DNA from: Utricularia gibba
Taxonomy: Eukaryota; Streptophyta; Magnoliopsida; Lamiales; Lentibulariaceae
Assembly (NCBI GenBank): GCA_002189035.1
Contig: CM007992.1
Span: 2,976,001-3,040,000, forward strand
Reading direction: 5' to 3'
DNA: 64,000 nucleotides
In this document: in pieces, positions 2,630 through 50,898 of the stretch
How positions within the stretch are numbered: the first letter of the stretch is position 1
Layout: every line of letters starts with the position of its first letter
Notes under the pieces: generated by a model
What the model was told of the DNA's origin: nothing
The model's database searches: none
The model's input: only the letters and a program-made list of their open reading frames with translations
Position numbers and translations under genes: made by a program

Positions 2630-3824
2630 ATGGCGTCGCATCATACCTGCTGCGACCGGCAGAAGGTCAACCGGGGGCTGTGGTCGCCGGAGGAGGACCA
2701 GAAGCTCATCAGCTACGTCACCACGTACGGCCATGGATGCTGGAGCTCCGTTCCTAGGCTTGCTGGTAGTTTTCTTATTTAATCTGGATTAGGGTCTTTG
2801 ATTACATGGTGAATACTGGAGGGATTGTGCTGGCGCCCAGGTCTGCAGAGATGCGGGAAGAGCTGTAGATTGCGATGGATCAATTACCTGCGGCCCGATG
2901 TGAAGAGGGGGAATTTCACTCCCCAGGAAGCTGCTCTCATCATTGAGCTCCACCGGATTCTAGGTAACAGGTAAAGCGAAGATGGCGGAATTGGAAGCAC
3001 GAGTATTGTTCTTTTCAAATACAGTGGAATTCAAACGCCGGCTTCTGTTTTGCAGATGGTCGCAGATAGCTAAGTATCTGCCTGGGAGAACAGACAACGA
3101 AGTGAAGAACTTCTGGAACTCGAGCATAAAGAAGAAGTTGATAGCCCACGCCAGACATCTCCGGCCTTCTGATCTTTACTTCGCAGCCAGATTGCACCAC
3201 AGCCCAGAAAACAGCAGCAATCTGATGATCCCGAATCCTGAAAACGAGCATCCTGTCATCCCATCTGAACCAGCAATGGCTTCTTTTTACTGTTCCATAG
3301 ACTCACCATTTGATCAAATGATGAATCCCGTTACGAAGGATTCATCATGGGCTTCGCCGTACGACCAACCCACAGGGCAAGATCAAGATGAAAGCTCCCC
3401 ATGTTGGGATTTGAGAACCATCGAAGTTACGACGTTGACAGGGAGGTGCTGGAAGCGCTGCTGCCGGAGCTAGACACCGGAAACTCGTCCTCCTGCAGTG
3501 GCTTTCCGGCCCCGATGTGGGGCGGCTGTGATGAATACACAGGAGGGTATTTTCCTGGCTGTGAAGAGATGCATCCGTACCACATCGACAACATTACATC
3601 TCTAATGGCGACCTTCGCGCAGCCGGATCCTCCACCGGAGTGCCCGCCCTCTTCGGACTCGCATTTATGATGTGTTGACAGCAAATTCCAACATCAATGA
3701 CTCCATGGCGGAACTGCGGCTGCGCTTCGAAACCTCAGAGGAGATGCTGAACATTTGTGGCTGGGAGCAAATGACTTCTGAATTTGAAAACTTGGATCTA
3801 CACAAATTTCCTCCATCCATGTGA
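2630..3824 (+). CDS. MYB26: R2R3-MYB transcription factor, MYB26-like (two apparent frameshifts)
   Basis: Exons 2630-2765, 2841-2970 and 3056-3824 give about 344 aa if two single-base shifts are allowed. The R2 and R3 repeats are complete and carry the tryptophan pattern. The run [13 protein letters not shown], the stretch [18 protein letters not shown] and the end [15 protein letters not shown] match the MYB26 (MALE STERILE 35) branch better than MYB61/86 or MYB103. Intron positions and phases (1 and 2) are those usual for R2R3-MYBs. Family knowledge: MYB26 is a nuclear activator of secondary-wall thickening in the anther endothecium, needed for dehiscence. Oddity: after about codon 204 the coding signal moves to another frame at the CCCC run 3397-3400 and returns to the first frame near 3643-3649. 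The middle segment ([16 protein letters not shown] and onward) and the last segment ([20 protein letters not shown]) both look like genuine protein. As written, the sequence stops at 3471-3473. A TATA element lies at 2584. Confidence 0.85.
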
Positions 3825-4432
3825 AATTCATAAGTATGGTTATGTATTTTGAATATGGGATTCAGATTATGTAGAACATAATCAATTTTGAAATTATTTG
3901 AATAGAATCAATTTTAAATTATAAAACTGTTTTATAATATAATATAAAATTATATTATAAAATTTAATGAAATAAATTATATATAGTAAAATTTAAATAT
4001 ATTAATTTATTTATATAATTCAATTTTTTATATTTATTTAAATAAAAATAAAAAGTAAAAAAATGATTTTTTACTTAATTTTTTGTTTAATTACTAAAAT
4101 ATAAATTTAATAATTTATGAAGTTAATCATATAATTTAATTTTTTAATTTTACTATAAAATGGATAAAAAATTAGAATTTTTAAAAATTCTGTTAAAAAT
4201 GCACGTGAGGGGGTATTTTGGTCATTATAGTCGGGGTGTAAATCAACCCTATTTTCGCCACGTGTCCTGGAATTCCTCTCGACCGTTACTGGATTTTCTA
4301 TTTTTAGTGGAGGAAACACCACGAACAAAGCCTTAATTCAATCAAACAACATGAATACTTTTGTCCTTTTACCATTCCCGTCGGACCCGCAAATACCATT
4401 TAATAATATTATTAAAATAATACATCACAACT
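3825..4432. other. Intergenic, AT-rich, with a dispersed repeat
   Basis: Contains the probable MYB26-like 3' UTR, one copy of a dispersed AT-rich repeat (3878-4035) and the LBD promoter. A GC-richer patch at 4200-4350 has no supportable coding content. Confidence 0.5.
3878..4035 (+). repeat. Dispersed AT-rich repeat, family B, copy 1
   Basis: Shares the ordered motifs AATAGAATCAATTTTAAATT, AAACTGTTTTATA and TATAAAATTATATTATAAAA with copies at 30722-30905 (same strand) and 20940-21110 (opposite strand). No coding capacity. Probably a non-autonomous or relic element. Boundaries are approximate. Confidence 0.55.
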
Positions 4433-5338
4433 ATGAACCAGCCCCCCCAGTTTTCTGCCCAATACCAACAATTACATCCGCCGGAACCCTAAACCGCCCA
4501 AATCCGCCGCTGCACCTCAGCCGTCCCGCAGCCACGGATCAACCACGCAAGCCTGTGCTGCGTGTAAGTATCAACGGCGGAAGTGCGCCTCCGATTGCAT
4601 TCTCGCGCCTTATTTTCCCCACGACAGCCACCGCCAATTCCTCAACGCACACCGTCTATTCGGCGTTAGCAACATTGTTAAAATCGTCCGGCACCTGGAC
4701 CCGGCGGCGAAGGACCAAGCGATGCGGTCGATTATCTACCAATCGGATGCACGCGCCGCGGATCCTGTCGGTGGATGTTACCGGATTATTCGTGACCTAG
4801 AGAACAGGATCGCGATGGCGAAAGCAGAGCACGAGATTGTCCTTCACCACCTCGCGCTTTTCCGGGCTGCGGCCACCGCGACGCCGCTACAGACCGGAGA
4901 TTGCTACGCGGCGGTGGAAGACGTCAACTCGTGGCCGCTGGAAACCGTGCAAACGAATGCGGAATCGGTATCGTCTTCGTTTCCTTGCCAACAAGAGACG
5001 AAGAATTCACCTGTCGAGGATTGCAACAATGCAGATTTGATCCAGCCTATTCTGGATCAACTGGATTGCGATGGAGATATTGGGAACGAAGATGTTTCCC
5101 TCAAATTCGATTTCGACGGAAATCTCATCTCCAGGTACGAACCGATCCAATTACACCGTGGATTCCAACTACGTTTACTCATCTCGTCTCTGCAACCGAT
5201 AGCTTGAGTTTTTGCCACAGTGTGGAGGAGACAGAGGGCTTCAAGGAAGAAGACGATGACTGTTTCGGTTACGTTGACGATCACGAAGATCTCAAAGCAG
5301 CAGCCACTTTCTTCAGCCTCACGAACTGCGACATTTGA
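4433..5338 (+). CDS. LOB-domain transcription factor, LBD22/27 type (start region frameshifted)
   Basis: The LOB domain is clear in frame from about 4550. It has the zinc-binding block CAACKYQRRKCASDC, then YFPHD, the GAS-like block FLNAHRLFGVSNIVKIV, and a coiled-coil-like end (YRIIRDLENRIAMAKAEHEI). The QFLNAHRLFGVSN wording is typical of the LBD22/27 branch (LBD27 is SIDECAR POLLEN in Arabidopsis). Coding continues to 5134, a GTACGA donor leads to an 86-base intron, and exon 2 (5221-5338) ends FFSLTNCDI. Family knowledge: plant-specific nuclear DNA-binding regulators. Oddity: the LOB frame contains no ATG after its last upstream stop (4434-4436). The only sensible start, ATG at 4433, is one base out of phase, separated by a run of seven Cs at 4442-4448. 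With one C fewer the protein would be about 272 aa. Confidence 0.87.
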
Positions 5339-6409
5339 TACACCAGAAAACGACGAGAGGTTTTCAATAAACCCCAAAGAACCAAACCCTACATTCCTTG
5401 TATTGGGCTTTTCCACCCTTGAATGTTGCAATGGGCTCACCTTCAGCCCATCACAACAAGGCCTTAAGCAGCCCAACCAAAGGAGGCCTCAATCCAAAAG
5501 ATAAATAAATTAAGCCCGCCTTTGGAAAACCAAAATTCTCTTCCTAAAAAGTCGATTCTTGTTTCAAGTATCATTTTTTATTTTTCAATTATCTATTTTC
5601 TATCAGGTGAAAATCACTCCAATTTTATGAGAGAGTGTATTATACTAAAATGTTTTTTTATAAACAATGACAGCCCTTTTATGTAATTATAATATTTTTA
5701 TACTATAAATTATCTATAAAAACATAGTTTCTTTTAATTTATAGATTTGTAAATTTTGATTTTTAATAAATGAAAGTGAGTATCTCATTTATGTATAAAA
5801 ACCAATTATCATTTTATTGTACTTCAAACATGAATTAATTATAAAATAATAGACAAATATTTTCAAAAGTAGGTTAAAACAATAGATATAAGAATTTTTG
5901 ATAGTATGAAGGGATGAATTAGAAATTTAAACATGTGTCAGATATTGTGTGAGAAAAATGTATATTAATAATATTAATTTTTTAATTTAATGTGTGTGAG
6001 AGAGCGTATGAGGATGATTATTTTTCTAAATAATCTAATCTGAAGGTGAATTTTCGAAATATGAGATCCTCCTCCATTGCCTGGTTTATTGCAAAAAAAG
6101 AAAAAAAAAATTGCCAGATGTGTTGATGATGATGGGAGGCAAAAGCTCGACACCATGGAAGCTTTTGTTGTTGGGAGCTTAAAAGAAAAGGATTTTAGTA
6201 TTTTTGCTCGATTTAAATACAAAAAGAAAAAAGGATGAGGTTTGGAGGTCATGTCACTCAGACCACTGTTTTGTTGGGTAGTCCCATTTTTTTCTCGAGC
6301 GGTTTGTTTTGTAGGCCGCAGATGAGCTTCATTTGTCTCCACAACCAACGCGCCTTGGAACGATGGGATCCAAATACAAAGAATGAGAATCCATCCAAGT
6401 TTTAAGCAT

Positions 6410-6641
6410 TCTTTTGAAAAATTTTTGAAACATATTTTTACTTTTCAAAAATATTTTTGAAAAATATAAATAAAAATAAAAGTAATCAATTTCTTATTTT
6501 TTAAAAAATAACTTTTATAGTTATAATTTTAAAAATGTTTTTTTTATAAAATTACTTTTACAATTAAAAATGTTCTAAAACAAAACTATTTTTAATTCTA
6601 AAAAGTAAAAATATATTTTAAAAATTTTACAAAACACTACT
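6410..6641. repeat. Foldback MITE-like element, family A, copy 1
   Basis: The two ends are inverted copies of each other: TCTTTTGAAAAATTTTTGAAA and CATATTTTTACTTTT on the left, and their complement (GTGTTTTGTAAAATTTTTAAAA, TATATTTTTACTTTT) on the right. The interior is AT-rich and non-coding. Related elements sit at 35450-35619 and 35819-36055. Limits are approximate and no target-site duplication was fixed. Confidence 0.55.
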
Positions 6642-8478
6642 TTAATCTTTACTTTGTTTTGAAGAAGAAGTGAATGGGTAATTTGGTGAAAAGTTTTTAC
6701 CTTGATGTGGGTGCAATAATGTTAATCTATGTATGTAATGTAATTGGCATTGATGTTAGTGCAATAATGGGATTCCCGTGTCTGGATGTTGAATTGCGCT
6801 GCAATAAAAGTGTATGGTGTGGCAGGGCCAGGCCAGGCCAGGACAAGTGCAACACACAGCAGCAGCATTCATTCATCAAGATCTGCACCAAGAACACGCA
6901 CCTACTTACACACATTCACTACCTTCACCAATCACTTCCCAATGGACCGGGCCAGGAATAGGATTACCTTCTCCTACATGACACATCATTAATTTGTGGG
7001 TTATGTTGTAAGGTATGATTTAAATATCTTGAAAAATATAGCACGAATATATGAAGAATTGAATTTCTTTATCCTGCTATATTTTATTTTTCTAGTTATG
7101 GGGTATGTTAGCATGTCGCATGCATCAAATTATTTATAACATTCTGTATCACACATTTAATTAAAAGAAATACGGCCATTTTGGGTGTTGTGGCATGTTA
7201 GTTGTGTCATTCATCAAATTTGCTCCTTATTGAACACAGCTTAATTATTGGGTTGGTTTGAAAAGTGTATGTTCTAATGCTTCATCAAGTAGAGTTTTTG
7301 TGGATCAAAAGTTCATTAGGTTATGAGACACATTCCACCTTCTAGAATGGTTGTGATTTTGTTGTTTGGGGAGACGTCGATTTATTTTTGATCAAGCTAT
7401 TAAACTCAAGTTTAAATATAAGCTTTCCCCACATCATTATTATAATAACTCTATTTAATCTAAACTCCAAACATCACTTCACCTTTCAAAATTTATATAT
7501 TGAAGGATGGATGTCAAAGAATGATCATTCATGCTTGTATGTGCCAAAATGAGTTTTATTTTACTCTTTGTGTGTGAGAGACAAATACATATATTAGGAA
7601 GAAATAAAGAAGTACGCATATGTAATAAATATGTATGAAAGTAGTTGAAATCTACAAAATTCGATTGGATCGATCTTTCTTATAAATAAAAGATTGTTAG
7701 AAAAAAAAAGGATTGAAATTTATATATACCAATTGTAATTCTTATTATCTTCTTTTTAGTGAAATCCATTTTTCCGATAACCTTGTTCACTTTTGTGATT
7801 TATTTGTTTAGATAGTTTTCATGTAAAAATTTTATCTTCTCTTATTTCTCTTATCTACATAACAACCCCCTAAAACCTGAAAATCACAAATTGGATATGA
7901 ACAAACCGGTCTATCACCTCAAAATCGGTCTTCTTCAATAACCTCATTTTCAACCATAACAAATATAAATCTTTTAACTTAATATGTGTGAGAAAATATA
8001 CGAATGATCATTTTTATAAATAATATTGAAATGAAATGCCATCTCCCTCCTTGAGAGGACAGGCTTGTTTGCAAAACACAGAATGGAGGAGGAAGGGAGG
8101 AGGCGAGGCCGGCAGCTGTGCATCATTTCCGATGGCGATGTTACTCCCTATTGCGATCGGGATTGGGATGCTGACCGTCCATGACTCTGTCGCATGCTAC
8201 ACCCCCAAATTACCAAAAACCCCCCAACATTTCTTTTATTTTCTTACAACTCCTCTGGCGGGTCACCTGTCCCTCTCTGCCTCCCCCATCATTCACACCC
8301 CTTTTCCCCCCACCATATGCCATCCCTTGCTTGCTTTAACCCACAAATTCATGTGATTAAAAGAAAGATTGCTTCCTGAACTACCCCTGTTTCGGGTTTC
8401 TCTGAATCGGGTCGGGTTGGTAAGGACATCCTCCATTAATGATTCCTTGCTCGAAGTCACGAGCATTGTCTCTTTCTC

Positions 8479-8486
8479 TATATATG
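8479..8486 (+). promoter_or_regulatory. TATA box of the NHL gene
   Basis: TATATATG lies 107 bases before the ATG at 8593, in a pyrimidine-rich setting (TCTCTTTCTC). The spacing is consistent with a transcription start near 8510 and a leader of about 80 bases. Confidence 0.6.
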
Positions 8487-8592
8487 TACACCTGTCACTA
8501 AGGCTTCCCAGCACAGAGATCCATGCATTGAAGGGGGAGAATAAACAAAATCCAGAGCTGCAACACCGAGATCTGAGCTCCCGCACCAAAAG

Positions 8593-9396
8593 ATGACCGA
8601 CAAAGTGCATCCATCTGCGAAGCCACAACCAGCCGCCGCCCCAGCAGCAACAGCAGCTGGGGGAGCAGGGGCCAGGGATGCTAATCTCAATCTCAAGCTT
8701 CCGCCGAATAAAGCCCAGGGTTACAACAACGCCAGGCGTCCGGCTTACCGCCCACAGCCTCCGCCGCGGCGGAGCTACCGCAGGGGATGCTGGTGCAGGT
8801 GCTGCTTATGGACGACAGCGGTGATTCTACTGATCGCCGTCGTGGCGGCCGTTGCCGGCGGCGTGTTTTATCTCATCTACCATCCCCACCGCCCTTCCTT
8901 CTCCGTCAAATCTGTGAATCTCTCCAAATTCAACCTCACCGACACCACCCTCAACACCAGTTTCAACATCTCCGTCGCCGCACACAATCCTAATTCCATC
9001 ATCACCTTCAGTTACGACCAAACTACGGTCCAGCTGTTCGCCGGAACCGTGGGGGTCGGCGACGGATCCTTCCCAAGCTTCACTCAGGGCACGAAGAATT
9101 CCACCACTCTGAGAGCAGTCATCGCGACCCCCAAGAACACATACCTAGACGAGGGAGATGACGCATCCGCACTGAAATCCTTCCTCCGGAAAGGGAAACT
9201 GCCGATCAAGATCCAGATGGACACCAAAATCAGAGCCAAAATTGGGAAATTCGAGATGGGGAAGCTCGGCGTTAGGGTTCTGTGCGAGGGAATCAAAATC
9301 GCTGTTCATTCCGGCAATACGGCGTCGTCCGCACCCAGTGTTAACGTCGAGTGCAAGCTGGATCCACGAGTGAAGATCCTGCGGTGGACAATTTAA
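8593..9396 (+). CDS. NDR1/HIN1-like (NHL) LEA2-domain membrane protein
   Basis: Single-exon gene of 267 aa. Residues 1-65 are a proline-, alanine- and arginine-rich cytosolic tail with the basic and cysteine-rich patch RRGCWCRCC. Residues about 72-96 form one hydrophobic segment (TTAVILLIAVVAAVAGGVFYL). Residues about 100-267 are a LEA2/WHY-type beta-sandwich domain with NFNISVAAHNPN-like wording (here FNISVAAHNPNS) and several N-glycosylation sequons (NLT, NIS, NST). Length and order match the NHL family (NDR1, NHL3, YLS9). Family knowledge: these proteins sit in the plasma membrane with the LEA2 domain outside, and many are induced by pathogens or senescence; the biochemical role is not settled. 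It stands alone, with a TATA box at 8479 and a TTA microsatellite just after the stop. Which NHL subgroup it belongs to is uncertain. Confidence 0.93.
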   Translation: MTDKVHPSAKPQPAAAPAATAAGGAGARDANLNLKLPPNKAQGYNNARRPAYRPQPPPRRSYRRGCWCRCCLWTTAVILLIAVVAAVAGGVFYLIYHPHRPSFSVKSVNLSKFNLTDTTLNTSFNISVAAHNPNSIITFSYDQTTVQLFAGTVGVGDGSFPSFTQGTKNSTTLRAVIATPKNTYLDEGDDASALKSFLRKGKLPIKIQMDTKIRAKIGKFEMGKLGVRVLCEGIKIAVHSGNTASSAPSVNVECKLDPRVKILRWTI

Positions 9397-10892
9397 GTGA
9401 GATTATTATTATTATTATTATTATTATTATTTATTCCTCAAAAAGAAAAAAAACACATTATTCATTTACATATTTCTATTTTCCCATAATTTAACATATC
9501 CCTTTACTCCCCCGCCCCCCCGCCAGCTGTCGCCCCCGGTCGGCATATACTTTCTTTTTTTATAAAAGCCGTCACGTGATGACCTGGAATTTAATTTCTT
9601 CATTTTTTAAATTTAATAATCTTATGAAATTCCATTTTATATTATGATTTTATAATGACAGAAAATGTACATGTAGCGCCATTAATGAAAGTTGATGCTG
9701 GATCTTTAATAATTGGCGTGGGCCCACCCCCCCTCCCACTGTCTCCGTCGCCCCCATTTCTGAATTGGTTTTTCAAATAATATCATGAATATAAATTTGG
9801 TGGGTGGGGGAATAAATACCTTTTCGGAATTAAAACTTGCATTTTTTTTCATTTTTTTTAATACGTGGGACAGGACAGGAATGTGATTTGTATTTATTCA
9901 GGGGTGTTCAGATAATTTCGAAAACTTTTATTTCGAATATGAATATATAAAATTGACATCCACAATTTGTGAAAAGAAAAGAGTTAGACAAGGTCAAAGT
10001 CGTATTTACTGAGTAAATTCATTGAGTTATTTTTTCATTAATTAGTTTTCTTTCAATTGGATTTCTGGTGCATCCAGCCATTCAGAAATTATACTTATAT
10101 TATCAAATATAATTAATTTTCAATATGTTCTTATTTATGAAAATTAAAAATTGGAATTCTATATCATGTTTTTTATATTTTTAATTTTGAAAATAAAATA
10201 AATAATATTTTATAAAAATATTACTTGTAAAACTTTTTTACCATAGTATAAGACATCCTAAATAGAACCAAATAAATATTATTTAAAGGAAGCTAGTATG
10301 TGGGCCCAATGGTAGGGTATGAATTTGGGTTGTGGTGTAATGCGATCCTGCGGGGCCCATGAAGACATTTCATCATATGTTACGCTGTCGTTTTGGGCGA
10401 GAGCAATTCCCTTCATGACTGTTGTTCTGCAAACCCTATGACTGTTTCTTATCTCACTGCTAAAGGTAAAGTTTTTATTTAAAATCGTCAGCGCTCCCTC
10501 TCCGTGGATTGCAATTCGTACAATTTTTTGTCTGGTGGTTACTTCTTGTCTCATGATGTATTTTCGGACGACGGCGCTTTTCTGGTGGTTGGCTGAGTTC
10601 GTCCGGGGGAATGATTTTCTTCAGAAGAATGAAGTAGTTTTTTTTTATGTTTTTCTTTTTGGATTATGGCTTGTGCTGTATGCTTCAATGTTTTCAGTTT
10701 GCATGGGTTCTTTTTGACGAGGGCGATGCACGCAATTTGCTGTATTTGTAGATATGCTGTGTCTGAGTTGAATGAATGTATTGGGTGGTGATTTTTAAGT
10801 TTTTGATATCGTCTGTGCGATTCTCGCTTGTTTTTCTACTTAGGGATCAATGCGTGAGATGTGTCAGTTGTTTCATTTCAGCTGTGGGTTAA
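9397..10892. other. Intergenic; FLX-like promoter and 5' UTR
   Basis: Begins with the NHL 3' UTR and a TTA microsatellite, then AT-rich DNA. From about 10,300 the composition rises and resembles a transcribed leader. A TTTCATTTCAG at 10870-10880, immediately before the FLX-like ATG, looks like the acceptor of a 5' UTR intron whose donor I could not fix. Confidence 0.5.
9402..9431. repeat. ATT trinucleotide microsatellite
   Basis: About ten perfect ATT units directly after the NHL stop codon, within its expected 3' UTR. Confidence 0.9.
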
Positions 10893-12029
10893 ATGGCTGG
10901 AAGGAATCGTTTTCATCGTGAAGTGTATGATTTCCGTCGTGGTTATCCCCCTGATATCTCTGTTGTTGGCGCTCCATCGGCTCGGCCTCATCCTCCTCAT
11001 CATGCTTTACTAGAGGAAGAACTTGAAATTCGACATGTTGAACTGTGCAGACTTCTGGGAGAAAATCGAAGATTAGTAGAGGATAGAATTGCTTTAGATA
11101 GAGAGTTAGGAGCTGCCGGAGAAGAATTACGCCGCATGAATCATGCAATTGCTGAAATGCGTGCAGAGCAAGAAGCCCAATCTAGGGAGCTTTTTGAAAG
11201 GTGCCGGAAGATGGAGGTTGATTTAGGTGCAGCTGAACCTCTGAAAAGTGAGGTTGCACAGCTGCGAGCTGAGGTGCAGAGATTGAACGCCATTAAGCAG
11301 GATTTGTATGGAAAGTTGCAAACCATGACACCTGAACTTGAAAAACTGAGGATTGAGAATAATCAGTTGCCTGTATTGAGGTCTGAGATAGACGGGCTTC
11401 ACCAGGAGCTATTGCGTGCTAGGTTGGTTAACTCTATTTTTTTAGACATGTATGTTTTGTTCAAATTTAGTTTATAACTCCTGATTAGCTGTATCATCTC
11501 TTTTTAGCTTCCGCTGCTTACCTTTTTCATACTCACAGAAGTGCCATTGACTATGAAAAGAATGCAAATATTCATCTGATGGAGCAACGGCAGGCATTGG
11601 AGAATAACATGGTTGCCATGGCGCATGAATTAGAAAAGCTTCGTGCTGACCATGCAAATTCTGGTGGAAGATCTTGGAGTCAAGGTCTGCATATGTTAAT
11701 GATTGTATTCTAGATGGACTTTGAGCTGTGCACGCCATCTATACTTATTTAGGAGAAAAAACATCTCTTAATGGTTTTTGGTTGGTAAGGTGGAAGTCAA
11801 GCGTTGGCATATGGCAATACCACTTCTAACTTTCCCAGCTCACATGCAAGTGGATATGGGATTCGCCAGGTAAGTTTTTAGTGTTTAAATTTCTACTATA
11901 TATATATTTTTTTCCTATAGTTGATGAATTATTAATTTTCTTCAGGTGGAAGTAGACAAAGCGTCTTTTTACAGCACAGGCTCTGCATCCTGGGGAAACT
12001 ATGAAAATGTATGGTTGGGACGCCGTTGA
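10893..12029 (+). CDS. FLX-like coiled-coil protein (FLOWERING LOCUS C EXPRESSOR-like)
   Basis: Four exons (10893-11422, 11539-11684, 11790-11869, 11946-12029) in phases 2, 1 and 0 give 279 aa. The N-terminus (MAGRNRFHREVYDFRRGYPP) is short and basic. Residues about 38-215 are a long charged coiled coil (LLEEELEIRHVELCRLL, ENRRLVEDRIALDRELG, MEQRQALENNMVAMAHELEK). The C-terminus is Gly/Ser/Tyr-rich (HASGYGIRQ, SWGNYENVW). Family knowledge: FLX forms part of the FRIGIDA transcription complex that raises FLC expression; FLX-like paralogues (FLL) share this architecture, but most lack a clear role. I infer a nuclear adaptor role only by family. Donors and acceptors are all GT-AG. The ATG lies 12 bases after a likely 5' UTR intron acceptor. 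Confidence 0.9.
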
Positions 12030-15000
12030 GATGTTGGCAGAAATGTGATAAATCCAGCTGCCCTCACTGATATCATCCTTTAAGTTCACCGTGGTACATC
12101 CAATGGTATAGTTGTGCACTACTCGCTGAATTGAAGCCCCTGTTTTTTTATTTCCTTTAATTTCATGGTATTAAAGCTGTTGAACAATTCAATTGTACCT
12201 CTTATGCCTTTTCCAATATTTATCTCTCTCCCATGTGAAGTGAACTATTTTTCATTTCACTGTGACGGATTGAATTGCATTTCAAGCTGCTTGGTCAGGT
12301 TTCGTGGTAGCTTTGTCACCTAAAGAGTTAAAGATTAGGTTTTAGTTGTTCAGATCTTGTGGCAGGACTAGTATATAGATGCTGCTGATACAAGAAGTGC
12401 ATGCGGGTATGAGGACTGTATTGTGCCTATTTTCTGAGTGAAGATTTTTGAAATTATATGTTTGAACGACAATCAGGTAAAATAATAAAGTTTCTCAGTG
12501 GACTCCTAGAATCCTTTTTCTAGGGTAAACTATCAATTTCCACCGAAGAGCTTTACCTTGAGTATCACGCAGATGAGAGCCCACAGTGTGTCTCCTGATT
12601 TATAGTATCTGCTAAAGACCAGCTACCACTTCTTTAATGTGTTTGTCGTATGAGTCTTTGTGTGGTCGTTGATTCAGAGCAGCATCATGACTCCAGCTTG
12701 ATGATCTCTATTCATCATCTCACATGCCCGTTGATTTAAATTTGCTTTGAATGTGTTCATAGATACGATGTTTTCAGAGCTTTCCCTCTTAGATTATGAA
12801 ATGGATGTTGAATGGGCATTTTGGTTGGTTTCGCATTGACATCTATGGGTCAGTTGGTATTGGTAACCTCTGCCTTGTCATTTTTCTTCTCCTTTTTGTA
12901 CTTACCTTTTAGAAAATATGTTTCTATAGTCTATCTTTTTAAGCATCTTCTCTTGGTTTATGTTTGATAGCAGTAAATTGTCCCAGTTTTCCGTATTGGT
13001 TGGCAGCGATGAAAAAATTTCCTCTGGGGTTACAAGGCTTCTTCCTAAGTTGGACCTTAGTTAAATGCTAATGCTGGGTTAAGAACAAAAATGCAATTTT
13101 TTGAAATTGTTTGTTCTGCATGGAACTCATTCTCTGATTTCAAAGCTGGATTGTTTAAGGCTTTTGATGCTAGATAACATGCAGACAGGGGTTTGCATTT
13201 GGATTTAAGAAGTTGAAAAATTAATTTCTCTGCGTGCTTTAACATTGCAAGATCAGTGTTACAAAAGTTTCCTCATCAATCAGATGCTAGCTTAGTTAGA
13301 ATTTGTGGCCATCTGAATAGAAAGGATGTACGATCCAAATCTTTGTTCTAATTCAACAATTGATCGGTTGGTGTTACAAAAGTTTAGGGAGGGGCATTTT
13401 CAAGTTTCCTTTCCTTCGTTTCCTGAATACCGTTAGTTGATGCATCTACTATTCATTTGCGGTTCCATAGTGCTTTAGCATGATTCTATAACTCAAGGAA
13501 TGATGATCAAGAGCTGCTGCCTGAAAATGCCTAACCTCCTTTTAGGCAAGTTCCTTTTTGGGCGCTGTGTTTCTTGGCTGCATCACTTTCAGTCTATTCG
13601 TTTTGGCCAGGGCATTCAAATATTGACTATAGCTACGTTCCTTATGAATTGATTTATATTCTTCGTGCTATTGTCCATTTGGTTGTTTCGTACTACCCTG
13701 GGTGCTTTCCATTGATTTTGCGAAACTTGATGCACTGGACAAGTTACTTTCTCATGACCGCCTGACATATTCCAAATGATTAATGTCTGTCTTGTTTTTA
13801 ATCTTGCGAGAGATCAAAAGATTGTATTTCGTAGGTGAAAAGTGAAGGCAAGTTCCTAGAGCAGTATCTTTTCCTTTAAATATCTTTAATAGCACCAGCA
13901 TGTGAACTAGTAGGGGTATTTTCTGTAGAAAGACCCTAGATGGATGTTTTATTCTGGATCCATGGGTAGCAGTTGTTAGAGAATGTTGTGAAGAAGACCC
14001 AAACATTCAGGCAGACCAAATATTCTTACCTAGCATGTTGACCATGTGCTTCCTCTCGACTGCAGCAGCAAAGTTTCATTGGGTATCTTTCAGTGAACAT
14101 GGCTTGTATATTTCTATCCGATTTTGGTTTATCTGTTCCTTTAGGGTCTTAGGTAAGTTATTTAAGGATTGTGTAATGAGCTTCACTAGCTTGAAGAATC
14201 AGAAGACATCGACTGTGAGTGCACAATTGACTGTATGCTCATTAACTGAGGTTCTGTACCGTGATCTTGTACTTGCGCATGTGTAGATTGTTGGTGATTA
14301 TCACTGCGTTCTAGGTATTGAGTTAATCTACATCACATCGATCCCTGGTCATATTGTTTTGGACGTATCCTGCTTTTAGTTTTATTTGTCAAATATTAGG
14401 ATCGTTACCTTCTCTTCAGCCATCTTCCTACTTAGTTATTACCTATAGTATTTTTAATACATCTTGGGGAGTAATGCACGACAAGGGACTTTATAGCAAG
14501 GTCTTTGAAACGTAGTTTGCATTCTGTTGTTGATTGCATCATCTCATCCACCATTGCCTGTAAAAAGGGTGTTGCATAGAATTGCAGCTGGGTCGTGTTA
14601 TATTTCACCTATATTACTATGTTTATGTTTGTCTTGCTAATTATTGTTCGATGATATATCTCATCCACCATTGAACGTTGGGTTATGCCTGAGACCTATT
14701 TTCTGTGGTTTGGGTGCAGATCATTTAATATGAGCGGCTTCACTCCCCACATGTGAGATAAATCCTTCAGGTAAGGTAATTCCTCCCTAATTCTAAAGGC
14801 ATCCCCGGGAGTGCATAGTTTTTGTTTTTGATGGCTTTCTTTTCTTTTCTTTTCTTCAGCTTGGATCTCATTATATGTTCGAAATGTGTATCCACTATAT
14901 TATTTCTTGATGTTCCAATCTTCCATGCCTGAATCCTCATCCCGAACTTGTGGAAGAGCTTGCGAGGTCCAAGTTTATACTTTCTAGTCGTCTTTTTCAG

Positions 15001-18195: not shown

Positions 18196-21100
18196 TTCCA
18201 CAGCTGGAGTAGTCCTCACTGCTGCGCCAAATGCTCTAAAAATGAGACTTCTGACTTAAAATAGATAACTTCACTCGAGCACTACGTCAATATCTGCCTA
18301 CAACAAGAAATAAACGGTGCATTATTAGGCCTTTCAGCCCCCACCTCCAAGAATTTCTCCAAAGTGAAGCTGTTGGACAGATGAAGAACGCATGGTGAAA
18401 ATACATCTTTTAACCGAGTATTGGCATGCTTCAGAGGTAAATAAAGTCTCTTACACATTTTTTTTCCGTCCTTTCTTCCGATCAAGAAACTAAAATACTT
18501 GTGGGTTTGCGCTTAGTGAGGTAAATGTTCGTCCAGCCAGGTCCCTAGAATGATGCCCTGACAGCCATATGAAAGGGATGTTCAAAACAAGTATTTTTTT
18601 TTCAAGAATAAGGCTTAAATGTTGGGCACATGATATGTCTGAAGGAATACATACAATCATACAGATAATACAGCACACGCATACATTTTCACCCTGCGCA
18701 AGAAGCAACCTGCCAGGAAAGTCCCAGATTTTGAAAAAAAAAAAAGAAGAGAAAAGAAAAGAAAAGGGATGCTGTTCTACATTTGAAATCTAGGATACAA
18801 CGAGATGGAACACTGTAGATTTTCCATTCCAAAACATAAAGCATCTCTCTTTCCACCAGTAAGAGAAGAGAAGATAAGAGAAAAAAAAACCTGTGAACCT
18901 TGACTCGTACAAAACAGCAAATCTGAAAAAGACACCGGAGGAGTTGGGGTAGGGTTTAATGTAATTTATATATCTACCGAGTACCGACACGGCGCTCACT
19001 CTTTTGGACAAAGAACTAGCTTAGAATCCCGTCGATTCCCACGACACCCAAAAACAGGATACGCCGGAACTATGATTAGCAATTTGCTGGGAAGCTTGTC
19101 ATAGCACCCGCACCATTTCACGCTTCACTTTTACCCCACCATCAACACAGAAACAGCAAGGGAAAGAGACGTCCCAGGCCAGAGTCAATTGTTTCACGAG
19201 GGCGCTAAAATGTGAGAGACTGTGCGTGAAAGAGAGAGTGGTTAATTTTGTTGAACTTTCAAGTTAAAAAGAAGGCATCCAACCCCACCAACCCCCCAAT
19301 TTCCATGTGATGAACGCAATAACTACAGCACAATAACAACAGCAGACACCCAGATCAAGAAATTAATCGAGCATTAACTAGTGATGGCTTCTTCATCTTC
19401 AAGTGAGAAAAAAGCCTGCCTCGCTCATTACTCCTGGGTGGGCCGCCGATGAGGAACTTGAGCATTCCAACTCCGCTTAACCTTCACAACAACCCCCAAA
19501 CCCCATTGCGCAAGTTTGAAGAAGAAGAAGAAGAAGAAGAGACGAGATCTAGAAAAGCTGTCGAGTACAGAGCAGGGCGGGCGGGCAGGCAGAGAGAGTG
19601 GCGATGATCAAGATGTAAATGGGGACGGGCAAGAGCTTTATTACATACAAACTTGGTGGGGCCCACAATTCAAATTTGTCTCTAAACCTGATTACTATTT
19701 TGAAATACTATTATTTTTACACGCCCAACTTTCCGTTATATTCGGTTCATTTACTTGTCTAATTATGGGACTCTGTGTTTTAATCCTAAACTCCAAAATT
19801 GTAGTGCCGAGTTTCCTTTTTTTAGTCATAACATACCTAATCTACCCCTTAATTTAAAAACGTGATTTTTTTTTGTTTAAAATAGATTTATAATTTTTAG
19901 TAATATTTTTTTAACCTGATTTAGAAAATTCGTCCCTATTATTTTTTATGTTACGTAAAGATAAAAAAAATACAAATACGATATCTATTTTTTTTTTCAT
20001 ACAGATAACCATTTTAATAATTTATTTTTATTTTTGAAAATATATTAAAGAAGTAGTCATTCCTTATGAATGTGCGATAAAAATTGTGGGGATGGCTTGA
20101 TTTTGAAAGCATGAAAATTAGAGTTACTATGCACATACCATGGGAAGACAGATGGAACCTAAATACTGCTTTAATTAATTGTGTATATAGAATGAAATAT
20201 GTTTATGTTTAATGAATTGTACATAAGATAAATATGTTTTAAAAGTTTCATCCAATTATGTATTTATTATTACAAAAGTATAAGGTAAAAATGTAAAATG
20301 AATAACAAATTATATAAATCCTGTTAGTATTAGCAAACATATGATTTTTTATATACTTATTAGCATTTTTTCACATCATATTAACTACCAAGCTCATTAA
20401 TGATTTATTATTATTATTTTTAAATGTAATTTACATTATGGTTTTGTTAAAAAAAGGCTTATAATTTCTGGTACATTTTTTACTGTTTTTTAGACGGTAA
20501 AATAGTTTCCACGTGGCCTGTTGACTAGAGGTCCCGAGGGTCCAGAACTGCCCGCGGGCAGCTGGGTCATCATCATTTATGTCTGTTGACAACAAAATTC
20601 AAGGATATCTTTTTATATGAAAACCAATTTCCCAAGAGCTAATATTTCATAAAACACAACATGCATAGATTTTTGCTAATTGGAATCCAAATTATTGAAA
20701 AAATAAATATTATTTTGTAATTTGGAAGATTTTATTTCGATCTACAAACATTAAAAACGTTAATATTTTGTTACAAACTCGACTTTAAAACTATGTTTTC
20801 AGATGAAAATTAAAAATCAGATTGGTATGGGATCAACTCAGTTCAAAATCTAGTTTTCATGGGTCGATTATGTGATTAAATAAGAGATTAATTAAAAAAT
20901 TATACTATTCAATTTTATCTATTCTAAAAAGCAATACATGTATATAATAACATTAAATTATATAATAATTTAATATATTAAACTTTACAATATATATTTT
21001 ATTATTAAATTTTATAATATAATTTTATATCATCACATAAAACAACTTTAAAATTTTAAATTGATTCTATTAACATAATTTTAAAACTGATTTTATTCTA

Positions 21101-21895
21101 ATGTTGATAAGAAGGGGGCACTGCAGTGCACTTGTTACTGTGCCTACTCCTCCTCTAATTGATTGTAACCGCCACCAAGTCACCTTGTAGCACATTAAAT
21201 AATGGATACCGTATCTAAAAAATTATTATTATCAATTATTACTATTATTGATGTTGGGAATAATTAAGTCCATTGAATAAAGCATAGTGAAAATTATTCG
21301 AGAGTATATTTTTTAATTTAATGCATGCTTTTTTTTATTCAGAAGGAATAAATAGAAGGTGGGGCCACGTGCGTGAAAATGATTGCTGCATGCCCGGCCC
21401 CACCTCTCTTTTTTAAAATAATATTTATCAGCGTGATGAATTAAATGCCTAGGCCTACTTACCCGAACCAAAATTTTCAAAATCCGGACTGGAGGGCGCA
21501 CGTTCTGAAAACCTTGCTGCTACTGTAGCTGCAGGTAAAGACAAGTGTTGGATCGTGTCCTGAAGGGCGCGGCCCCTTGGTTAACTTGCGTGCAATGGTT
21601 TGTGTCTCCCTGGGGACAACTCTTATCATGCATCGTCTGTACAGGGAGGAATATGCTGCTTCGATTCATGGCTCACGTGGCGTAGACCCCATTCCCACGA
21701 GGGGTCGTGTATCGCCATTACGGTGTGGATTGGATTCAAATGAAGTTGAATCCATGTGTCGGATTCAGTTCCAACTCTGCAACTCCAACCAACCCATGAT
21801 TGTGTTGTAATCAGTTTGATTGAAAGTTGGGATTAGGAAAAGCTGGTTTAAAGACAAGCTGGTTTTCGATGGGGGGATCTAACATCAGCGATGTG
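18196..21895. other. Kinase promoter/5' UTR, then AT-rich intergenic DNA
   Basis: 18,196-19,600 is moderately GC-rich and probably carries the kinase leader and promoter, with possible 5' UTR introns and a GAA microsatellite at 19517-19540. From 19,650 to 21,500 the DNA is AT-rich, contains one copy of repeat family B and has no recognisable exon. 21,500-21,895 is the 3' flank of the phosphatase gene. Confidence 0.5.
20940..21110 (-). repeat. Dispersed AT-rich repeat, family B, copy 2
   Basis: The reverse complement carries the same ordered motifs as 3878-4035: AATAGAATCAATTTAAAATT, GTTGTTTTATG, and ATATAAAATTATATTATAAA followed by ATTTAATAA. Boundaries are approximate. Confidence 0.55.
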
Positions 21896-22954
21896 TTAGT
21901 GGGGAACCTTGAGAACAGGAAGAGGAGTATCGTGTGCGGCGGGGATGACTGGGAAATCCTCTAACTTGCAGTCAATGGTTGGGGAAACTGTGTTGGAGAT
22001 GAGGTTCAGCAGGACCTGTTCAAGCTGGGCTCCGTCGCTCCATTCATGAATTGAAGCTTGGATGTGGCTCCTGTTTTGGGAGATCAGATCCCAGACGGGA
22101 AAATGTTTCCTCGGCAACATGAAATCATCTTCTGTCAGTTTCAGGGTTGGGCAGAAGTCCCCTGTTCCATCTCCGAGATATATGATCTTTTTCTTGTTCC
22201 CTTCTTTCGCGAGTGATGCTTGAATCCTCTCTATGATCAACCCCTTTTCACCAAAACAGCATCAGTATACTTATTTAAGTTTAAGTGCTCTGTAACGAAT
22301 GCTTTATGAAACTGTGCATGTACCTTGCACATGTTGGGAGGGCAGCGGGGCAGCCATGGGGAGAAGTGGTGAAATCGATGTAGGGGGAGATTCTAACTCT
22401 TCCTTCCTCATCAACATAGCCAGGATTTGTGTTGATTTCTGAGAACAAATCCCTGATCCCGAGATGTTCAAGGAGGGTTTCAATGAAGAAGAGATTCGCG
22501 TCGCTCACTACTCTCAAATCACATCTGAACATCACAAACACCATCACCATTGCCAATAATTACAAATCATGAAGTAAGGAAGACAAGAAGAAACAGCTTT
22601 TTTAGTTAGTTACCCTAGAGAATGGGCTTTCTTGATTGCGGGAACAATTCTGGGATGAATGGGAGTTCTTTCCAACACTCGTTTGATATCATCCACACTT
22701 TTCCCGTTCAAATGCAACTCCCTCATCATTCTATCCTGTAAACATCACGAAAAGTTACAAAGAAGAAGATTCGACCTTGAAACTCTGCAGAAACAGAACA
22801 AAATCGAGAGCTTTACCATCAATGTGTTCCAAGGCATGGTGGGTCGCAACTGATCGAACAAATCGGTGAAACCCAGTTCATTAATGACCCAGTTATCACT
22901 ATCAACATTGATAATCGTCTTGTCAAAATCGAAAACCACCACAATACCAGCCAT
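21896..22954 (-). CDS. PHOSPHO-type HAD phosphatase (PPsPase1/PS2-like), one apparent frameshift
   Basis: Four exons on the minus strand: 22954-22817, 22735-22614, 22524-22324, 22243-21896; about 269 aa. HAD motif I is VFDFDKTII near residue 8 with both aspartates; CDLRVVSDAN provides motif II; IYLGDGTGDFCPTLKL provides motif III/IV. The N-terminus MAGIVVVFDFDKTI, the segment PWNTLMDRMM and overall order match the plant phosphate-starvation-induced phosphatases (inorganic pyrophosphatase 1/2, thiamine-phosphate phosphatase-like). Family knowledge: Mg-dependent cytosolic hydrolases acting on pyrophosphate, phosphocholine/ethanolamine or ThMP; the substrate cannot be told here. Oddity: exon 3 is 201 bases where phase demands 202. 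A base is missing close to the G4 run 22347-22350 (C4 on the coding strand), after which a CPPNMCKG-like motif should be read. As written, the frame stops at the start of exon 4. A TATA box lies upstream. Confidence 0.87.
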
Positions 22955-23022
22955 TTGCAGAGACCTCCACTTCTCAGAAAAACCAAGTATTGCGCTTGAA
23001 TTCCCAATGTGGGGGGTAGTCC

Positions 23023-23029
23023 TTATATA
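23023..23029 (-). promoter_or_regulatory. TATA box of the HAD phosphatase gene
   Basis: On the minus strand this reads TATATAA (within CTATATAAGG), about 70 bases before the ATG at 22954. The position and sequence fit a strong plant core promoter. Confidence 0.65.
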
Positions 23030-24293
23030 GAAACAATGGGGGTTGCGGGAATTCGAATACGCCAAGTTCATGCCTGGAATATTACCCTTGGGATGGAGAC
23101 TGGAGATGCGCTATGGCGATTCGAAGGGGAAATCCACCTTTTTCCCATGACGGATGATCCCCACCGTCGGTACACGATCCAACGGTAAATACCCGTCTTC
23201 CCTTTTTCTGGGAAATCCTGCAAAAAGCGAATATTCTTATTTATGGAAAATCTATGGAATAAAGGAATCACCGCATGTCACAAATGAAAACGGTTACTTT
23301 TATAATTTACTCCCGTAATCTTCGGACATTTTTAAATTGCATTGAAATAATTAATTTTCACTATTTAACGTATGTTTAATACTTAATTTTTTTTACCTTA
23401 AATCCCGCATTGTTTTAATATCAAATATAAATTATTTTTAAAAATTAAGTATATTTTATCTCTAATATTTTTTATTTTTTAAAATAAACTGGTTACTCAT
23501 ATTTAGTTAATTTGAAATAAGATTTATCTTTATATAATTTTTAAAGCATGCATTATAAATTATATCTTTTTGCAGTTACACTAACAAATATTCAATTTGC
23601 ATGAAGGTCTTGTCATTCCTCTAATTTCAAATAACTCATAATGCAACATATAAGATGATCTTACATCTTTTTTTATTAATTTCATTAACATTTTTCATGT
23701 ATTAATTTGTAGTCATTCTCAATTTTCTTATTGATTCCATTGAAAACACAATTTATCACCATACAATCCTCTCAAATTAAATTATATGCATTTGACACAA
23801 GCATGACAAATTAAATTATATGCATCTTATGCACTCTTCACACATAGCAAATGCAAGTATTTATCAATGATTCAATTTCTCTATACTAAATAATATATTA
23901 TTAAATGTTCATCATATCGAGATTAATTTTGCTTGGACACCCATCTCTTTTACTCATCTAATATATCTATTCTCAATGTATTTCCATACAATGCACTAAT
24001 TTTTATTACTGATAACTTTTCACATTATATCAACATCAATTTTAGTCCATCCTCTTTTGAACTCATAGCAATTCTTTGTAAGTGTTTATTGAGTGTCTAA
24101 AGTTTTATTGTGGTACAACCTATCTCTTTAATTATGGTCATTTGTAAATCATTAGAAACATTTTCATTAGTAATCACTCTTCAATCCATTTATCATAATA
24201 AAGTTTGATTTTCTCTTCATTCCTAATCTTTAATTGCATGTGTGATGCAAGAGATAATTGGAGATCACTCTAGTTCTTGTTAGGTATGAAAGT

Positions 24294-24790
24294 TGGGCCG
24301 ATCCTACTGACCCGACCCTAATTCAAAGGGTTTTCGCCAAATTTTGAATTAGGATTGGACTAAAGCTTGATTATTTATAATCATGATTAATATGGTCATA
24401 GTTCGATTATGTAGTGAGTTGGGCTGCCCCTAACCAGCCCAAAGGCCTACCATAAATAAATAAAGCATTTTATAAAATTATTAAATATTAATACACATAT
24501 TAGTTTTATTTAAATAATTTATACAAACTAGTTTAAAATTATCATATTACTTATCAATTCATATTATTTATCCAAGAAATGTCATGGTATATGTAAAATG
24601 AATTAATTATAATTATAATATATAAAACCTTATTTTCGAATTAGGCACTAGACCCATCGGGCTTTTGGGACCCTAAACCCAATCAGTCCTACGGGTCTCG
24701 TGCTTCGGGCCAAGAAGCGCAACAAATTTTCGGGTCTCCAACATATAAGCCCAAACCCGATATTTTCTAGGTCCGGCCCGGATCGGCCCA
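24294..24790. repeat. Segment bounded by an 11-bp inverted repeat, possible MITE
   Basis: TGGGCCGATCC at 24294-24304 recurs as its exact complement at 24780-24790. Both arms are set in GACCCG/GGCCCGG-rich DNA and close to a short TGAAA (left) or TTTCAT (right) run. The interior is AT-rich and non-coding. It ends about 170 bases before the CRNKL1 start codon, so it may contribute promoter sequence. No target-site duplication was identified. Confidence 0.4.
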
Positions 24791-24962
24791 CGAGGTTGAG
24801 TTTAAATTTTCATCCTCATCTACTGAACTTTTTCTTCTTTCTTGCCCTAGTTTCTTACATTCTTGCCTTCCTTCTCAACTGATTCATTCGCATTGGCGTC
24901 TTGGGGAGTTCAAGGTGCTTTGATAATCAGGTTGGAAATACTAGGAGGAAGATCTGTCGGCC

Positions 24963-27897
24963 ATGGCGACTAACAGAGACGGAGACCCCAACTTAGGGTA
25001 TCTAACGAAGAGGGAAACCGAAGTGAAGCTTCCACGCGCTACACGGGTTAAGAACAAGACCCCTGCTCCGATACAGATCACTGCGGAGCAGATTCTGCGC
25101 GAAGCTCGTGAACGTCAAGAATCTGAAATACGGCCACCCAAGCAGAAGATAACTGATGTCAACGAGCTCGGGGATTACCGCCTTCGGAAACGTAAGGAGT
25201 ATGAGGATTTGATTCGCAGAGTGCGGTGGAATAAGAGCGTGTGGGTTAAATATGCTAAATGGGAAGAAACTCAGAAAGATTATAAACGGGCGAGGTCTGT
25301 GTGGGAGCGTGCCCTGGAAGTTGATTACAGAGATCATACTTTGTGGTTGAAGTATGCTGATTTTGAAATGAAGAATGGGTTCCCTAATTATGCGAGAAAT
25401 GTGTGGGATCGAGCCACACAGCTTTTGCCGAGGGTGGATCAGTTGTGGTATAAGTATATACATATGGAGGAGATGCTGGGGAATGTGGCTGGTGCGAGAC
25501 AGATATTTGAGAGATGGATGAAGTGGGCTCCTGATCAGCAGGGATGGCTGTCTTACATAAAATTTGAATTGAGATATAATGAAGTCGAGAGGGCAAGGGA
25601 TATTTTTGAGCGGTTTGTAGATTTCCATCCAAGAGTAAGTGCTTGGATAAAGTATGCTAAGTTTGAGATGAAAAGTGGAGAAATCTCTAGGGCCCGGAAT
25701 TGTTATGAGAGAGCCGTGAACAAACTTGGAGATGATGAGGAAGCTGAAGACTTATTTTTTGCATTTGCTGACTTCGAAGAGAAGTGCAAGGAAACAGAGA
25801 GGGCACGGTGTATATACAAGTATGCGTTGGATCATATTCCGAAAGGGAGAGCTGAGGAGCTTTACAAGAAGTTTGTTGCTTTTGAGAAGCAGTATGGTGA
25901 TAGAGAAGGAATTGAGGATGCCATAGTTGGAAAGAAGAGATTTCAGTATGAGGACAATGTGAAGAAAAACCCTCTTAACTATGATTCGTGGTTTGATTAT
26001 ATCCGGTTGGAGGAAAGTTGTGGGGATAGAGAAAAGATTGAGGATGTTTATGAGAGATCTATAGCAAATATACCACCTGCTGCTGAGAAACGATATTGGC
26101 AGCGATACATTTATTTGTGGTAATGTGAAAGACTTTTTTCCCCAGTTTTCCATTTTGAAGATTTTATTTCGAGTTTGCATATTGATTTTTTTAGTAATCA
26201 TCAGGATTAATTATGCATTGTATGAGGAGCTTGACGCACAAGACATAGATCGAACCAGAGATGTCTACAGGCAACATATTTCTCTGACTCTACTATCTTG
26301 TATTTTGAGCTTGTCTGTATCGTGTAACAATCATGCTATCTTACCTCTCTTATTGAGTCATTTTACTTCATTTTCTTAGCGTCATGGCTTGGATATGACC
26401 CTCTACTTATTTTATATTTTCTATATTTAATCGTATAACTAACACACTTTGTTTTAATCAACAGCTTGTGTCTAAAAACAATTCCTCATGAAAAGTTTTC
26501 CTTCGCAAAAATATGGTTGATGGCAGCTCAGTTTGAGATACGTCAGTTAGATCTTGATCGAGCTCGACGAATTTTAGGTATGGCTATTGGCAAGGCCCCC
26601 AAAGATAAGGTATTGGCTACAGTATTCCTCTCATATATCTTGTTAGCGTCAGATTCCTTTTTTTTTCTCCAAATGAACTTGACTAAACTGTGGTTTTTAC
26701 AGATTTTCAAGAAGTACATCGAGATAGAGCTTCAACTTGGAAATATAGATCGATGCCGGAAGTTGTACGAGAAGTACTTAGAGTGGGCGCCAGAGAACTG
26801 TTATGCATGGAGCAAGTATGCTGAGTTGGAGAGGTCATTGGCAGAATCTGAAAGAGCTAGGGCTATTTTTGAGCTTGCAATTGATCAGCCTGCACTGGAC
26901 ATGCCAGAGTTGCTATGGAAGGTGCATTCTTGGAATAGCTTTTTTTCTAGTTAATTTTTGTATGCCGGTACCTACACTATGCCGGGTCAAGTGATGTGAC
27001 TCTGATAATGAGGTTTCCTGTTGTTTATCTGTGAAATGGACAATTTTGTGCCATGGAAGTGAAGTGCTGGTGATATTTTTAATACAATTAGCATGCTTGG
27101 AAACGTGTATTCTTCTTTCCAGTTTTGTTTATGTTAGCAACTTCATGCTTTTTTTTTTTCACGTACACTGTTCATTTCCACTAATCTGTGTAAACTCTCA
27201 TGGCAGGCGTATATTGACTTTGAAATATCTGAGTCAGAGTATGATAGAACTAGAGAGCTCTATGAAAGACTTCTAAACAGAACGAAGCATTTGAAGGTGT
27301 GGATCAGCTATGCCAAATTCGAGGCATCTTCAGTCGAAGAATTTCCAGAGTCAGACCTCTCTGAAGATGCTACCAACTCAAAGAGAGGTTGTCTTGAACG
27401 TGCAAGAGGTGAGACTAAACCTACCCTCATTATGTATACGCTATGCGTGTGTGTTGGTATTTTCCCCATCTTATCACTTAGTCATCTGCTTTGCATCAGC
27501 TGTGTTTGAAAGATCCCTCAGCCACTTCAGAAACTCCGCCCCAGAACTGAAAGAAGAACGAGCCATGCTGTTGGAAGAGTGGCTCAGCATGGAAAGCAGT
27601 TTCGGGGAGCTCGGTAACATCGAGTCCGTCCGTGCTAAGTTGCCGAAGAAACTGAAAAAGAGAAAGCAGATAGAAACTGAGGATGGTCCAGCAGGGTACG
27701 CATTTCGGTTGCATTCTATTCTTTGTGTAGCGTAGCCCATTTCTCTTGGAAATCGGTGCTGATGCAATGAAACTCTGCGCAGGTACGAGGAATACATCGA
27801 CTACGTCTTCCCAGAAGAAGCTCAAACCACAAATCTCAAGATCCTGGAAGCTGCTTACAAATGGAAGAAGCAGAAATCGGTTTCTGGTGATGAGTAG
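24963..27897 (+). CDS. CRNKL1: Crooked neck-like protein 1 (Clf1/SYF3), spliceosomal HAT-repeat factor
   Basis: Seven exons (24963-26119, 26205-26270, 26465-26609, 26703-26921, 27207-27408, 27500-27695, 27783-27897) give 699 aa, close to the family's usual size. The N-terminus has the hallmark [20 protein letters not shown] and [17 protein letters not shown]. It is followed by at least a dozen half-a-TPR (HAT) repeats with W..Y..FE / RAR..ERAL wording from about residue 75 to 600, then a charged tail ([11 protein letters not shown]). Family knowledge: a scaffold of the Prp19-associated/NineTeen complex in the nuclear spliceosome, needed for catalytic activation. Intron 2 (26271-26464) appears to use a GC donor (TACAG|GCAACA); all others are GT-AG. 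With the GC donor the peptide spacing between DVY and CLK equals that of relatives. The start is the first ATG and matches the family N-terminus. Confidence 0.95.
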
Positions 27898-28719
27898 CAG
27901 CCTGTCTTTGCTAGTTTGGAATGAAACAGTCTTCATTTTTTTTCCCTGATGAGTAGCAAGCACTGCGCTTCTGTACCATACTTCCAAATGTTAATATAGG
28001 GAGTTTCAGCACATGGAAAAATATATAAATTAATATTGTTTATGGTTTGCCGTTTTTATTTCATGTAATAACATGTACTATTCTTCATGTGCAATGTCTT
28101 GATTCAATCCAATGAGGCATTCATTAGTTGGAAGAACCGCACGTGTGCCTGACAATCTCCGAAAGCTTGTTTGCCTACAAGTAGGCAGCTATCTTGACGG
28201 GATATTCAGATATATGGCATCTTCTAACTAATGTATCAGAAATTTGGTCATCTTGATGGGTTATTTAGAAATAAGATCATCATCTCATTATTGTATGAGG
28301 AATCTGACCATCTTGACGAGGTATTTAGAATTATGGCCATCCTCTCACTAGCGTATGAGAAATCTGATCAGGCGTATATAGAAATATGATCATCTTCTCG
28401 CTATTTTGTAAGAATCTGGCCATCTTGACCGACCATAAAGAGTAGCAGGTTGATTGACAGGGTAAGTGACACTTCCTGGTTGACAGGATTTTGGTACTCC
28501 TATTGCTTGGTTATTGATGGAAGAACATTTAGCTTCTTCATTGGTTTTGTTGACACAAAAATATACTACAATCGCTTTCTGCAATGCTAACAACTTGTCA
28601 TTCATCACTTGAAAGTGGCGAGAGAAATGTCGATGAAACGTAAAGATTTTGTATCAGACTGTAGATCTGTTCATTAGTTTATCAGAAACTATTGAAAAGA
28701 AAGCAACTTGGAACTTGGA
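27898..28719. other. Intergenic between convergent CRNKL1 and GT14 genes
   Basis: Contains both 3' UTRs and a degenerate 60-bp tandem array (28194-28424). No exon was recognised. Confidence 0.55.
28194..28424. repeat. Degenerate 60-bp tandem repeat, four units
   Basis: Units at 28194-28252, 28253-28312, 28313-28369 and 28370-28424 (59, 60, 57 and 55 bases). Each follows the pattern TTGACGGGNTATTTAGAAAT, then ATGNTCATC, TCTCACTA, GTATGAGAAATCTG and GCCATC. Units are diverged from each other, so the array is old. It is not CRISPR-like because there are no unique spacers. Confidence 0.8.
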
Positions 28720-29979
28720 TCAGAACCCCAAAAGTTTGGAAGAGTTCTCTAACAAATGATCCAAGGCACTGGGAGCAATCTTCCTTGCAAACAAGAAGCA
28801 GACAGTGGCGAGCTGATCATTGTATTTGCAGGGCTTACCATAAAACAGTTTCTCAAAGAAACCTTGTGTTAGATCAGTCTTGCTGAATGTAGCTGGATGA
28901 GCTCCACCTCTTGACCAATCTGCCCACGTAAGGCTCCTGTTAGCAAGAAGATGAGGTGATTCCATGGACAACATCGTCTGGAAGTAATGCTCGTCGACAT
29001 AGCACGCGGGTCGACAGAACTGCTCAAACAGGGGGTAATATTTCTTGTCTTGAACGATTCTAACAGCAAGATGTCTGTTAACTTCGAACCACTGTGACCC
29101 TTTACGCCAATCTGTGAGATTGACTGTAGGCGACATGTTGGTGTTGTATCGTCCTCTTCCATAGGGTCCCTGTTCGTCGAATGAACCCATGAAGCTGTGC
29201 CTGGACTTTGAAATGTACCTGTATACGAAATCGAAGCTCACTATTGGAATGCAGGCTTCTGAGAGGAGGATGAACCATTCATTGGATATATCAAGTAGTG
29301 CATTTGCAAGAAGTCTTCTTTCTGCATCACACATACTCATCATCCCCCATTCAGCAACCTGAATAAAACACAGAAAGGGATACACAGATCACAAACCGCT
29401 GCCTTTTCATACTATGAATCTATGATTACAGTGCATCCATTTGCTTTACCTGACTTGGGATTTGCCTGTCATAGAAGACTGATGAAGGGGGAACTTCGGC
29501 TGATAAGAAGGTGATGTGTGAACATAGATAGAGTAATACTTGGTGTTTCCTTTGAAGAATCTCTCCCAGAGAGGAGCCAAGGGCAGAGGTCCTCTTGTTA
29601 AGAACATGAATGCAATCTTGGGAGTCCTCTTGAAAGGGTAATGCTGAATCATTGGAACAAATGAAGCTCGCCAAAGAAGCTCAGTGTCATTCATATCGTG
29701 CTGAAGCTTATAAGGAGATCTAATCCAACTTGCTAAAGTCCCAAGATCTTCAACGCATGGTTGAAGTCTTAGAATCACAGGGAACTCATTCGTGACTTTA
29801 ATCAAACGGCTGGTGTACACGTACACGAAAGAAAACACTACTCCCATCCCCAACAAAAACATAAGAACCTTGAGAGTTCTTAACGGAAAATGCCTCCCTG
29901 ATTTGGCTATGGCTCTGAAACCAGGCACCCCTTTGCCTTCTTCTAGTGAACCAAAGCTCCCTGTTCTCGACTGCAGCAT
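28720..29979 (-). CDS. GT14 core-2/I-branching-type glycosyltransferase, BC10-like (one apparent frameshift)
   Basis: Two exons on the minus strand, 29979-29450 and 29358-28720; about 389 aa after one shift. A short cytosolic tail is followed by one transmembrane segment at residues about 37-56 ([20 protein letters not shown]), giving type II Golgi topology. The lumenal domain has [67 protein letters not shown] and [13 protein letters not shown], the standard blocks of plant DUF266/GT14 proteins. Family knowledge: rice BRITTLE CULM10 is a Golgi member affecting cell-wall cellulose and arabinogalactan proteins; the donor and acceptor of this gene are not known. Oddity: exon 1 ends out of phase by one base. 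The expected [15 protein letters not shown] is broken at the G5 run 29487-29491 (five Cs on the coding strand where six would keep frame); as written it stops at 29447, inside the intron. Confidence 0.88.

Positions 29980-47696: not shown

Positions 47697-50898
<3,202 letters not shown>

Follow-up and report, generated by a model that had tools for sequence, protein, structure and literature searches.

According to PMC12007338, indel errors in many genes have been reported for assemblies made from PacBio reads only. The genome of Utricularia gibba has been assembled from such reads with HGAP, at 88x and with a contig N50 of 3.4 Mb (PMC5793159), and we infer that this is the assembly examined here, which comprises 516 contigs and 100.09 Mb. 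The window, that is, the whole stretch of 64,000 nucleotides that was analysed, is C4:2976001-3040000. An earlier note on this window had described five one-base frameshifts at C/G runs in four conserved genes, namely a MYB26-like gene, an LBD22/27-like gene, an HAD phosphatase and a GT14 gene, and had proposed that they are uncorrected homopolymer errors. Every one of the runs is present at the coordinates given for it, and four of the five breaks (MYB, LBD, HAD and GT14) are true in the sequence as written, whereas the fifth, at 3643-3649 in the MYB gene, turns out to be a natural stop.

The breaks are best explained as consensus errors of the long-read assembly and not as gene death, a reading to which we assign a probability of roughly 0.93, because the same slips occur assembly-wide in genes that are under selection. 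The cause proposed by the note is thus supported by the genome-wide one-base losses, by the C/G runs, by the constraint downstream of the breaks, and by contigs that duplicate one another. The consensus would drop, and rarely add, one base in or beside short C or G runs, and the affected genes would probably be intact in the plant. We infer that the same process lies behind each of the four sites in the window. The four breaks are not a biological feature.

Frame breaks in the window and in its homeologous block

All five proposed sites were translated in three frames and then compared with their homeologs. A search of the assembly gives a homeologous block at C413:1280001-1350000, in which the gene order is reversed and the MYB, LBD, HAD and GT14 genes are all represented; its copies of HAD, GT14 and MYB are intact. 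For MYB, HAD and GT14 the same search shows no redundant contig that covers the window. The block also contains part of the crooked-neck (CLF-like) gene found at 24945-27897 of the window, of which a DNA match recovers the C-terminal part only, and the window copy seems to be the full-length one.

The HAD phosphatase (PF06888) is broken in exon 3, on the reverse strand at 22347-22350, where a C4 run (G4 on the forward strand) stands in place of a C5 run in the homeolog, whose frame is open. Pfam domain matches run on past this break on both sides. The GT14 gene (PF02485, Branch) is broken in exon 1, also on the reverse strand, at 29487-29491, where comparison with the homeolog finds the C5 run (G5 on the forward strand) to be one base short, and the Branch domain continues in exon 2. 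Both sites are thus as the note had described them.

In the MYB26-like gene, one base is missing from exon 3 on the forward strand within 3397-3412, the frames on either side of the gap matching the homeolog. The one-base change claimed for this site therefore holds, but it is not localised to the C4 run, since C4 at 3397-3400, G3 at 3406-3408 and T3 at 3410-3412 are all compatible with it. The second frameshift claimed for this gene, at 3643-3649, is excluded by the matching in-frame end of the homeolog together with the missing downstream stretch. At 3643-3671 on the forward strand the window copy reaches its natural C-terminus, DSHL followed by a stop, the homeolog ends in the identical frame with EFPPPSDWQM and a stop, and a sequence comparison finds in the homeolog no counterpart of the open stretch that lies 3' of the window stop.

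The frames that continue after the breaks contain no nonsense codon in HAD, GT14 or MYB. Nor does Ka/Ks against the homeolog rise towards 1 after the lesion, as it would under relaxed constraint: it is 0.15 in HAD exon 4 (0.07-0.15 across all exons of that gene), 0.08 in GT14 exon 2, which is 3' of the break, and 0.08 downstream of the MYB break as compared to 0.29 upstream of it, where the downstream MYB value has a Ks close to saturation and the pairwise values in the window genes in general are compatible with a very recent lesion.

The alternative to be considered here is a real and very recent loss of function, in which one copy of each gene is being lost after whole-genome duplication, beginning with slippage at C/G runs. 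Homeologous blocks do exist, HAD, GT14 and MYB each have a second, intact copy, and true decay is found nearby, in the nonsense codon and the lost zinc-finger cysteine of the LBD homeolog and in a CLF homeolog of which the C-terminal part alone is found by DNA match. However, this scenario needs many conserved genes to have been broken too lately for any nonsense codon to have appeared, and we consider it highly improbable.

The least certain of the four breaks is that of the LBD22/27-like gene, as it involves an extra C and has a dead homeolog. The one-base change that the note had claimed for the C7 run at 4442-4448, on the forward strand, is upheld, on weaker evidence than at the other sites: the run has one base too many for the start codon, at 4433, to be in frame with the LOB domain. 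With one C removed, the leader to NNYIRR has 17 residues, equal to that of the homeolog, although the homeolog itself lacks a base at this position. The homeologous gene (C413, ca 1347000-1348500) has a Tyr changed to TAA in the zinc-finger block, the first Cys changed to Trp, and several indels, and going by these lesions it is a true pseudogene, so that constraint on the LBD gene is not measurable from the pair.

One could accordingly ask whether the C7 insertion alone is a real mutation, the other three breaks being errors. It is the sole insertion and lies in the longest run, and since its homeolog is already a pseudogene, a loss would fit the history of the plant. We nevertheless find this unlikely, considering that the LOB domain of the window copy is unbroken (PF03195, E 7.2e-36), that no further lesions are seen in this copy, and that breaks in this assembly fall most often at long C runs.

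The note had further stated that the other 14 genes read cleanly, and this stands for the window genes and exons that can be aligned to the homeologous block, namely NHL, an RLK exon, poly(A) polymerase exons, Aux/IAA, DUF and GATA, in which no window break is found. The block itself has lost single bases in the NHL gene and in the VGWPPVR motif of Aux/IAA, at which the window copies are intact, and the breaks therefore strike either copy. As to candidates that were rejected, a poly(A) polymerase break near 47930 falls, as judged by eye, in an intron ahead of the acceptor, and the breaks that the aligner gives where GATA exon 1 ends and within one poly(A) polymerase exon come from read-through into introns. 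A further candidate break given by the aligner lies in the homeolog, close to where GATA exon 2 ends.

Conserved families across the assembly

In the genome-wide survey of conserved families, a break was counted where neighbouring matches lie in different frames and are too close to each other for an intron. There are 15 such breaks in GRAS genes, 7 in HSP70, 4 in KCS and 3 in HSP90, which makes 29 for the four families, a count in which one HSP70 locus is entered twice (on two contigs) and some of the GRAS cases may be real pseudogenes. The shift is a one-base loss in 25 of them. Using lengths that were estimated and not computed, this corresponds to about one break per 4 kb over ca 110 kb of domain coding sequence, to be compared with four in ca 20 kb in the window. 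The window is not special, the same breaks being present across the whole assembly, irrespective of gene function or copy. That HSP70 and HSP90 genes are also broken speaks against a real loss of function.

The same is true of the nine GRAS genes that have a good intact relative. They carry 14 frameshifts and no nonsense codons, and their downstream Ka/Ks is 0.07-0.20, as compared to 0.24-0.32 in three diverged intact pairs, that is, constraint is no weaker than in the intact pairs. Two of these pairs show one aligner break each, which is located outside or at the edge of the unbroken reading frame.

We now consider where the breaks are located. The 14 GRAS sites were pooled with those of the window and its homeologs, and among the 20 localised sites obtained in this way 13 are at C/G runs of at least four, where positions drawn at random from these genes would give 1.4. 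The excess is inflated by the four window sites, which the earlier note had picked partly for their C/G runs. The GRAS sites alone, not selected in this manner, give 8 of 14, and the breaks thus exceed chance at C/G runs. These statistics leave out L051, L059, L060, L063 and L066, for which the references are weak or introns are possible, and L058, which is on a duplicate contig. The MYB and NHL sites, the first L053 site, L056 and L062 are not cleanly within a long run, a point that weighs against the error reading. No excess of A/T runs is seen among the 20 localised sites, and since natural slippage should strike A/T runs as well, this is another argument against real loss.

The Gly-Gly-Pro-Pro motif, whose coding sequence is made up of runs of G and of C, is broken in several different GRAS paralogs. 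In two DELLA-like GRAS genes, at C375:1927315 (L054) and C142:1758954 (L055), it is the same C5/C6 run in this motif that is frameshifted.

Loci assembled twice

In natural alleles and paralogs, substitutions generally outnumber indels. The opposite is found at two loci that are present twice in the assembly. Between the end of C414 and C422 (L048, L058) there are no substitutions and 12 indels over 2.0 kb, and between C316 and C412:853787 (L039, L040) there are 1 substitution and 10 indels over 4.1 kb, with the base being lost from C316 every time. Over the 6.1 kb of the two loci, this makes 22 indels and a single substitution. Such an indel-dominated difference is unlike natural divergence, and that the duplicate contigs of one locus differ nearly by indels alone argues against real loss. 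It should be noted that this comparison involves a contig end and small contigs, in which the coverage may be low and none of which lies over the window; the kind of error applies to the interior of large contigs as well, but its rate need not.

Some small contigs of the assembly are redundant, duplicating stretches of large contigs from which they differ almost only by indels. A third pair, C241 and C304, shows few indels and some substitutions, and was dropped as a duplicate-assembly test because it lies in a tandem HSP70 array. The array is at C304:2235549-2244778, the substitutions in the overlapping C241 are clustered at one end, and the overlap may be a misassembly.

The duplicate contigs also bear on another option, in which the breaks are present in the DNA and the frames are rejoined at C/G runs, either in the RNA, through transcriptional slippage, or on the ribosome, through programmed frameshifting, the genes being functional. 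This would agree with the constraint that the genes appear to be under in spite of their breaks. However, the breaks differ both between homeologs and between the duplicate contigs of one locus, which means that the slip sites are not conserved. No slip site conserved between gene copies was found for HAD, GT14 or MYB, and because these homeologs are open without a shift the option is disfavoured, to the point that we regard its likelihood as negligible.

Relation to known systems

Returning to consensus errors as the preferred reading, gene-loss and pseudogene counts made from this assembly need checking if, as seems to be the case, it is the reference genome of Utricularia gibba. About one quarter of the surveyed GRAS genes seem to be broken solely through one-base slips.

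Compared to fractionation pseudogenes, the likeness is that the affected genes have a homeolog, and the LBD homeolog in the paired block is indeed a true pseudogene; the difference is that the window genes have neither nonsense codons nor relaxed constraint. With respect to the indel errors of long-read-only assemblies described by Watson and Warr (as cited in PMC12007338), two differences can be pointed out. The excess is here confined to C/G runs, and coding sequence carries one break in roughly 4-5 kb, a high rate that is above what we would expect for a well-polished 88x assembly and that counts against the error reading. The present breaks resemble those errors in that they are one-base indels, mostly losses, that they are associated with homopolymers, and that they are scattered over conserved genes which are intact in other respects.
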